A DNA stretch of 64,000 nt from Bacteroidota bacterium (GTDB taxonomy: Bacteria > Bacteroidota > Bacteroidia > UBA8524), in the NCBI GenBank assembly GCA_008933805.1, contig WBUH01000008.1, forward strand, positions 1 through 64,000. The letters run 5' to 3'. The notes under the pieces are model-generated. The model had not been told where the DNA came from and did not search any database. It saw only the letters and a program-made list of their open reading frames with translations. The translations under genes were made by a program, and so were the position numbers. Shown here piece by piece: positions 33,768 through 57,821 of this stretch; the stretch's first letter is position 1; every line of letters starts with the position of its first letter.

Positions 33768-34901
33768 TCAAGGCTTAGCATATGCAGGATTGGTTGTTAC
33801 CGATAAATCGGTAAGGGTTTTTAAGAAGGCTACCAATTGCTTTTTTTCCAACTCAGTTAAATCCAGTTTACGAATACCATTTTCAAATCTACGAGGGCCG
33901 CTATCTGCTTTAATATTCATATTCACATCCAGCGTGGGCGACATTTTAACCCCTGAATTATAAAACTCCACCACTTCTTCAAGCGTTGCAAAACGTCCGT
34001 CGTGCATATAGGGTGCTGTTAACTCTACATTTAACAATGTAGGCGCTTTAAACTTGCCATTATCGTTTACATTACCGCTAACTCTTGCATGGCCCGTGAG
34101 CACTCCCATAGGAGGCTCCCAATCCAAGCCGTTATTGTGCAAACGTTGTACAGGGTTATCTACAAAATTATCAGTCATCAACAACCCTGATGTAGGGTGG
34201 CAATGGAAACAATCGCCTTTATCGGGAGACATAAAAATCTTATGGCCTGCCTTTTCATCATTTGTTAAGCCCGCCAACCCAGGAAAACCTTTCTGAAACT
34301 TGCTGCCCGTGGCAACAATGCTGCGCATAAACTGCGAAAGTGCCCTTGCAACCAATAATGAATCAACTTTATCCGTTCCAAAAGCCTTTTTAAACATTGG
34401 CGGATACTGAGTCTTTGCTTGTATTTTGGCAACAGCGTTCACCCAACTTTCGTGCATCTCAATAGGATTGCGAACAGGGTCAAGAGCTTGAGCCTCTAAA
34501 GAGTTTCTGCGAGCGTCCCAAAAAAAGTCCTTGTTCCAAGCCATATTAATAATGGCCATGCTGTTTTTATCACCCTCCATTCCGTCAATCCCCTTGCTGA
34601 ATTTATTAGGAGCATCGGTAAACGAGTGTTCTTGTTTGTGACAACTGGCACAGGCTTGGGTATTATTTCCTGATAATGCTGAATCATAAAACAGCATACG
34701 CCCCAACAACACTCCGTTTACAGTAAGCGGGTTATTAGGGTTTGAAGGCGGTGTAAAAAAGCCTAAGGGTAACGTAAGGGTATAAGCGTCGTCACCGGGC
34801 CACACAGGGTCGGTTTTATCATCGGGCTTGCATTGTGATACAAATACCATCACACCTAACGCCATAATAAGCAGTAATCCCTTATTCAATAATTTACCCA
34901 T
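33768..34901 (-). CDS. MbnH/MauG-like di-heme cytochrome c peroxidase-family lipoprotein
   Basis: 377 aa. Lipobox at C24 (VFVSQC). Two c-type heme sites: C84-ASC-H88 and C231-FHC-H235. Other CcpA/MauG family landmarks are GRMLFYDSALSGNN, FFWDAR (W128, D129) and APYMHDGRF. Such enzymes use two hemes to oxidise peroxide or, in the MauG/MbnH branch, tryptophan residues of a partner protein. The gene lies 2 bases after an MbnP-like gene on the same strand, which favours the MbnH-type role. It probably sits in the periplasm, on the outer or inner membrane. Confidence 0.85.
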   Translation of the reverse strand: MGKLLNKGLLLIMALGVMVFVSQCKPDDKTDPVWPGDDAYTLTLPLGFFTPPSNPNNPLTVNGVLLGRMLFYDSALSGNNTQACASCHKQEHSFTDAPNKFSKGIDGMEGDKNSMAIINMAWNKDFFWDARRNSLEAQALDPVRNPIEMHESWVNAVAKIQAKTQYPPMFKKAFGTDKVDSLLVARALSQFMRSIVATGSKFQKGFPGLAGLTNDEKAGHKIFMSPDKGDCFHCHPTSGLLMTDNFVDNPVQRLHNNGLDWEPPMGVLTGHARVSGNVNDNGKFKAPTLLNVELTAPYMHDGRFATLEEVVEFYNSGVKMSPTLDVNMNIKADSGPRRFENGIRKLDLTELEKKQLVAFLKTLTDLSVTTNPAYAKP

Positions 34902-34903
34902 AG

Positions 34904-35704
34904 TTATTCCTTTATACTGAGGCTATTTACAAAATTATCGGCAATATTTTTAGCAATCTCAAACCCACCACCAATGGTATGGCTCACGTGCTTATGTTCA
35001 AAGTCGATACCGGTTAAAAACTTATCTGCATCAATCTCAATCGTAATCACCTTATTATCCCCCTTGGTGAATTTAACGTAGTGAGCCAATGTTTTTGTGC
35101 GATACAACTCATTAGTACCTGTGTGCACAACAAACGGCACACTAAATGTGTCGTTTTGCATGGTATCCAAGCGGCCTTCAATCAACAAAAAGCGGTATTG
35201 CGAACCCATATCCCAATAGGTACCGTTAATTAAAGAAAGAGGGTGGTTATTAGGATAGGTTGAAGGGTCGGTTACATTACTTACCGAGTCAACTCCAATC
35301 CCAAAAGTTATTTCCTTGTATTCGCCGGCTTCAACTTTCGCACCTACTGATAAATTAGGTTTGTCTTTGCGAAAGTCAATCATCTCAATATCTTTTACCA
35401 ACACTTTGCTTCCATCAGTTTTCACCAAATACATTTTTGATAAGTAAAACTTCAGCAACTCAAACTTATAGTTAAACCCCTCTGCATCTACGTTATACTT
35501 TGTATCCATGGCAAAACTCTTGTTGTTTGCTTTTGCCGTAAACACCACCTTCACAGTATTATCATCTAAGCCCGCAGGTATTTCGGGGTCGTTTTCTTTG
35601 CACCCGCCTAAAAAAAGAGTTGCGGCAATGGCAGCCAGTAACAGCGCCACAATGCCCAGTTTTGCCCACTTAATGTGTTTAAGCATATTCAACAAGGTTT
35701 CCAT
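34904..35704 (-). CDS. MbnP-like copper-binding-family lipoprotein
   Basis: 266 aa from the ATG at 35704; an inner ATG at 35686 (MLKHIKWAK) would also give a good signal sequence. Lipobox LGGC with C35. The mature part has the MbnP pattern: VVFTAKANNKSFAMD near the start, YKFELLKFYLSKMYLV, VKDIEMIDF, ITFGIGVD, NGTYWDMGSQYRFLLIEG, and HKHVSHTIGG near the end. In methanobactin operons MbnP binds copper and a tryptophan is converted to kynurenine by its partner MbnH. Here W164 is the only tryptophan in the mature protein. The downstream neighbour is the MbnH-like gene. Confidence 0.8.
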   Translation of the reverse strand: METLLNMLKHIKWAKLGIVALLLAAIAATLFLGGCKENDPEIPAGLDDNTVKVVFTAKANNKSFAMDTKYNVDAEGFNYKFELLKFYLSKMYLVKTDGSKVLVKDIEMIDFRKDKPNLSVGAKVEAGEYKEITFGIGVDSVSNVTDPSTYPNNHPLSLINGTYWDMGSQYRFLLIEGRLDTMQNDTFSVPFVVHTGTNELYRTKTLAHYVKFTKGDNKVITIEIDADKFLTGIDFEHKHVSHTIGGGFEIAKNIADNFVNSLSIKE

Positions 35705-57521: not shown

Positions 57522-57821
57522 AATTTACATAAAAGACAATAAGGCAAACTAAAAAGTTTCTGCGAATACAGCTTTTCCTTTTCAAACGTTAATAGAAAGC
57601 CTTATAAAAATGCAAAAAATAATACAAAAGCACATAGGGGTATAGAGGCACTTAGTTGTACTATGAGGGTGATTGCTGATTTTTTAAAAATAATCCCAAA
57701 CAAAGCAAACACTTGATGGTTTACAAAAGTGCCTTCATCGAGAAAAATGAACAGTTGAAATAATATGTTAACCCAACCCAATGAACCAATTCATAGTTTC
57801 GCGGCGCATTCTAACAAAACT
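57522..57821. other. 300-base interval upstream of the TonB receptor gene, no gene seen
   Basis: AT-rich, containing several short direct A/T runs and the in-frame region upstream of the receptor ATG. An alternative ATG at 57765 would lie here, but its 19 residues lack signal-peptide character. It presumably holds the receptor promoter; no convincing -7/-33 pair was found. Confidence 0.45.

Follow-up and report, generated by a model that had tools for sequence, protein, structure and literature searches.

Described systems and the window pair

MauG is a di-haem enzyme with a tyrosine axial haem ligand that oxidises tryptophan of its partner protein, methylamine dehydrogenase. In the methanotroph Methylosinus trichosporium, MbnH reportedly converts the first tryptophan of a WxW motif in its partner MbnP (MtrMbnP) to kynurenine, and MtrMbnP is said to bind Cu(I) by one histidine and one methionine. 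CorA/CorB and MopE/SACCP of methanotrophs likewise combine a copper protein with a di-haem MauG-like partner; in CorA, Cu(I) is held by two histidines and one water molecule, with a kynurenine in the second sphere (PMC3912023). MbnP/MbnH pairs located outside methanobactin operons were published in 2013. Here we analysed such a pair in a 64,000-nucleotide stretch of DNA from a Bacteroidota bacterium (the window; contig WBUH01000008.1, GenBank assembly GCA_008933805.1). The pair is real and of an ordinary kind; its site is a variant. It probably forms an operon of two genes that serves a single kynurenine-containing copper protein of the cell envelope.

Both genes lie on the minus strand. The gene for the MbnP-family lipoprotein (34904..35704, 266 aa) ends in TAA, and after two bases, CT (34902..34903), the ATG of the gene for the MbnH/MauG-like di-haem lipoprotein follows (33768..34901, 377 aa); this spacing implies one shared transcript. 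Lipobox cysteines are present at position 35 of the MbnP-like protein (FLGGC-KENDPE, codon 35600..35602; Cys in 29/29 members of its clade) and at position 24 of the MbnH-like protein, so that the sequence-only reading, which had described two lipoproteins of these kinds separated by 2 bases, was accurate. In both proteins the lipobox Cys is followed by acidic residues and a Lys (CKENDPE and CKPDDK), stretches which we take to resemble the Bacteroidota surface-lipoprotein export signal, and surface exposure of both lipoproteins is plausible.

The window MbnP matched the Pfam family PF20243 with E=7.6e-31 and 107.9 bits (cut-off 27), as the sequence-only reading had anticipated. Its AlphaFold2 model, built on an 88-sequence alignment, had a pLDDT of 90.6 and a pTM of 0.79, and the only confident fold matches in the Protein Data Bank (PDB) were the six chains of 7L6G, the MbnP of M. 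trichosporium (E=8e-10 for 7L6G, about 1e-9 across its chains, probability 1.0), the next match having E=0.025. Families, gene order and fold are common to the window pair and the M. trichosporium pair (7L6G, 6E1C). Since the TM-score to 7L6G was only about 0.5, with 17% identity in the fold alignment, the window protein is a distant branch of MbnP. Methanotroph and window MbnPs have in common the leading Trp of WxW and the histidine of a VHxG motif; in contrast, the window pair lies outside a methanobactin operon and has no four-Cys C-terminal motif, Met replaces the second Trp, and the predicted second copper ligand is His instead of Met.

The predicted target tryptophan

The window MbnP contains Trp only at positions 13, within the signal peptide, and 164, so that W164 (codon 35213..35215) is the sole Trp past the lipobox, as the sequence-only reading had it. 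What that reading missed is that the site is the usual WxW motif with its second Trp lost (W-D-M; GTYWDMGSQYRF). In the alignment with methanotroph MbnP, itself aligned to 7L6G, W164 corresponds to the first W of WNW, which makes it the predicted kynurenine site. Conservation was counted over 245 distinct MbnPs. Trp occupies the W164 column in 236/245; at +2, where the window MbnP has M166 (codon 35207..35209), 213 sequences carry Trp and 12 carry Met, and at -2, where the window MbnP has Thr, 182 carry Met.

The first Trp occurs without the second in 18 sampled proteins, and the state of the second Trp changes 13 times on the tree. In the FastTree phylogeny, the window MbnP falls in a clade of 8 sequences (support 89) that uniformly carry Thr at -2; this clade is nested in a larger one of 29 sequences (support 87), where both Thr and Met occur at that position. 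Within the clade of 29, the second Trp is missing from the window protein, from three proteins that belong to a single other family (GTHWGMFFMYRF), and from the protein of locus L180 (GTFWTGMGGYRF). Three Bacteroidota pairs of this clade, L174, L171 and L180, resemble the window pair in having Thr at -2, His at the position of H242 and an adjacent enzyme; unlike it, L174 retains WxW and has a TonB receptor gene nearby, while L171 reads W-G-M-F-F-M-Y and L180 W-T-G-M-G-G-Y.

Because the window protein lacks the second Trp and the -2 Met found on either side of the usual site, W164 might instead be oxidised to something other than kynurenine (hydroxy-Trp, N-formylkynurenine or a radical intermediate), or serve another metal or redox role. 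The motif GTYWDMGSQY of the window MbnP indeed lacks both the Met and the Trp that most other MbnPs carry, and copper genes do not adjoin the pair. Nevertheless, Thr at -2 is common in the clade of the window protein alongside an intact WxW (NTYWTW, NGTYWTW), several other lineages have lost the +2 Trp and retained the enzyme, and H194 and H242, discussed below, are both retained, which leaves this alternative unlikely. If kynurenine formation at W164 is the correct reading, only the first Trp of WxW would be essential for kynurenine copper sites; moreover, with a single Trp past the lipobox, the MbnH reaction would be easy to follow by mass spectrometry.

H194 is lost in 5/8 of the proteins without W164 and in 6/236 of those with it, a joint loss that is suggestive and that corresponds to few independent events on the tree. 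At two loci (L129:2920-3690 and L132:2905-3693) the target Trp is replaced by Phe (FNVPAMLGGGYHY); the proteins keep His194 as well as the C-terminal Met, and their genes are still followed by an overlapping MbnH gene. In Candidatus Parvibacillus calidus (CP058702.1; L141:6014-8747), three tandem MbnP-like genes precede one enzyme gene, and the first of their products has Asp instead of the Trp and has lost the conserved His as well.

Predicted copper ligands

H194 (codon 35123..35125) occupies a column that is His in 233/245 MbnPs and is invariant with methanotroph MbnP. H242 (codon 34979..34981) lies C-terminal to the Pfam domain, in a column with 161 His and at least 46 Met, the Met count being a lower bound, since Met also occupies this position in the GGGY class, which MAFFT misaligned. 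In the proteobacterial and cyanobacterial MbnPs of Methylocystis, Paracoccus, Ideonella and Trichormus, this column holds the Met of a GCMS/CMS motif. Since His and Met are both copper-ligand types, we read the column as a ligand position, and the simplest reading of the alignment is that H194 and the His or Met at 242 are the copper ligands. The sequence-only reading had pointed to nearby histidines as worth checking, and H242 adds to H194 a His at a ligand-like C-terminal position. It also corrects that reading in one respect, as the second ligand in the window would likely be His and not the Met of methanotroph MbnP; the site is thus likely to be His194/His242/kynurenine164, as in CorA and MopE (PMC3912023), instead of His/Met/kynurenine. 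The Met at -2 was considered as a copper ligand and is disfavoured: many members have Thr, Asn or Ser at that position, and Trichormus MbnP has Leu.

The predicted site resembles the copper site of CorA, with its two His, water and kynurenine. The window MbnP had no PDB sequence match at E up to 1, and neither CorA nor MopE was among its 50 top-ranking fold matches as listed; the likeness to the CorA/MopE site would be convergent. We tentatively propose, as a possibility that falls somewhat short of an even chance, that the window protein represents a Bacteroidota MbnP subtype with a kynurenine site lacking the second Trp, two His in place of His and Met, hence a CorA/MopE-like His2-kynurenine site, and a matching MbnH branch. 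If so, the second copper ligand could switch between Met and His inside one fold.

The MbnH-like enzyme

The window enzyme contains two haem c attachment motifs, CASCH (residues 84-88, 34638..34652) and CFHCH (residues 231-235, 34197..34211), and a probable MauG/MbnH-type axial haem ligand, Tyr314 (codon 33960..33962), at a position where 119/137 of the paired relatives and 92/103 of the unpaired ones also have Tyr. These features, together with an MbnP gene 2 bases away, identify it as MbnH-like. Among NCBIfam models, the best was TIGR04039 (MbnH; 249 bits, E=4.9e-74, nearly full length), as opposed to 137 bits for the MauG model TIGR03791, and the substrate of MauG is unrelated to the window MbnP.

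An ordinary cytochrome c peroxidase encoded beside an unmodified binding protein would also carry the shared CCP_MauG domain, which the window enzyme matched with E=1.6e-51. However, its best PDB match was MbnH 6E1C (E=1.2e-52, 182 bits), compared with 127 bits for the best peroxidase, 1IQC, and Tyr stands at the position which we take to hold an axial Met in ordinary peroxidases and an axial Tyr in MauG. Given in addition that an enzyme gene accompanies MbnP at most Bacteroidota loci (see below), we rejected a bacterial cytochrome c peroxidase identity, and this explanation is highly improbable. The proximity to MbnH suspected in the sequence-only reading was therefore borne out, and neither of the two outcomes it had named as refuting, a non-conserved W164 or an enzyme closer to ordinary cytochrome c peroxidases, was obtained.

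Occurrence and co-inheritance of the pair

PF20243 was present in 97/395 genomes of a sample of the phylum, and in about 138/155 of the Bacteroidota loci fetched with enough flank, the enzyme gene follows MbnP on the same strand; at some loci the enzyme is doubled, or MbnP is present two or three times. Location outside a methanobactin operon, which the sequence-only reading had singled out, is true of the window pair and is not unusual: it is the norm. The prediction of a kynurenine copper site in the window, if correct, would support the published view that such sites are widespread outside methanotrophs.

The closest relatives of the window MbnP are at most 39% identical; its relatives numbered one in the scan of named genomes, with none in viral contigs. 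At L174, the locus of the closest relative (39%), two MbnP genes and two enzyme genes lie downstream of genes for a TonB receptor and a DUF5074 protein, a context that fits metal uptake. Over 137 adjacent pairs, identities among MbnPs and among their MbnHs were correlated (Mantel r=0.74, permutation maximum 0.06), in part through shared ancestry. The three enzymes closest to the window MbnH (57-58% identical) adjoin proteins with GTHWGMFFMY, the other W-x-M type, and these findings argue that the pair evolves as a unit.

A decaying or redundant copy that has drifted from the motif was also considered. The source genome encodes nine MauG-type enzymes and five MbnPs, four of which have an enzyme gene next to theirs; four further genomes from the same family yielded no orthologue of the window MbnP (best 28%), and motif positions have been lost. 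Against decay, both reading frames are intact and tightly spaced, the lipobox, both haem motifs, Tyr314, W164, H194 and H242 are kept, and similar W-x-M proteins accompany the closest enzymes in three genomes of another family, which makes this explanation very unlikely. As for horizontal transfer of the pair, the GC contents (mbnH 43.0%, mbnP 39.8%) are near that of the window (42.2%) and give no evidence either way.

In a plasmid record, the gene after MbnP at L251:3885-5045 is annotated as 'methanobactin export MATE transporter MbnM', a label that the plasmid records of L252-L254 share; the L251 translation is an MbnH di-haem enzyme with two CxxCH motifs, and at this locus the product name looks wrong.

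Proposed function of the pair

In the reading we favour, that of a kynurenine-containing copper protein and its dedicated enzyme, both proteins would be exported and lipidated, and the MbnH-like enzyme would use peroxide or oxygen to make a high-valent haem state with which it could convert the partner's W164 to kynurenine by oxidation. Once modified, the MbnP may bind a single copper ion, probably Cu(I), through His194 and His242 close to kynurenine 164, for capture, storage or hand-over. Kynurenine and copper are well-founded predictions, not results, and the exact ligands and the physiological role are inferred.

In favour of this reading are the PF20243 and 7L6G matches, the conservation of Trp at 164 and His at 194 even though the best relatives are no more than 39% identical to the window protein, the persistence of the first Trp where the second is gone, His or Met at 242, the affinity of the adjacent enzyme to MbnH with its Tyr314, the correlated identities of the two proteins and the TonB receptor gene at L174. 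Several observations weigh against it. The window MbnP scored 41 bits on TIGR04052 (MbnP_like_WxW), below the cut-off of 140; that type, with four Cys and a complete WxW, is not matched by a protein with W-D-M and no four-Cys motif. The 249 bits of the enzyme on TIGR04039 are likewise below the curated cut-off of 362.85. The other four MbnPs of the genome also fall below the TIGR04052 cut-off and 0/9 of its MauG-type enzymes reach that of TIGR04039, sub-cut-off scores being the rule in this genome. L129 and L132 keep the MbnP/MbnH pair despite Phe at the target position, and the copper-binding Met of MtrMbnP was deduced from conservation, not from coordinates. The correlation of identities between MbnPs and MbnHs includes shared species ancestry. 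Finally, no copper-related neighbour of the window pair was found.

Neighbouring genes and other loci of the genome

Neither a TonB receptor gene nor a methanobactin gene was found among the flanking genes tested, and none of these encodes a recognisable copper regulator, in agreement with the sequence-only reading. The flanking genes with Pfam matches encode an Hsp70, a DAHP-synthase-family enzyme (probably KdsA), a transaldolase family member and an enoyl-CoA hydratase, and the TonB-plug protein nearest to the pair starts at 57765. A methanobactin operon elsewhere in the genome was considered and rejected, the search for MbnB having given only a weak 25% match on another contig.

The same genome has further loci of this kind. 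On contig C1 (L010, 234-237 kb), two tandem genes encode MauG-like di-haem lipoproteins, with MbnP absent from the 3.4 kb fetched around them. A second, divergent MbnP/MbnH pair (L005) lies about 110 kb away on the contig of the window pair (C8, about 144 kb); its MbnP belongs to the W-P-D-I-M-G-G-G-Y class, a motif that likewise has no second Trp. On contig C3 (L004:1441-2415), one of the five MbnPs, with a C-terminal type IX secretion sorting domain, is encoded after an HYC_CC_PP family gene, with the genes for two MbnH-like enzymes downstream.
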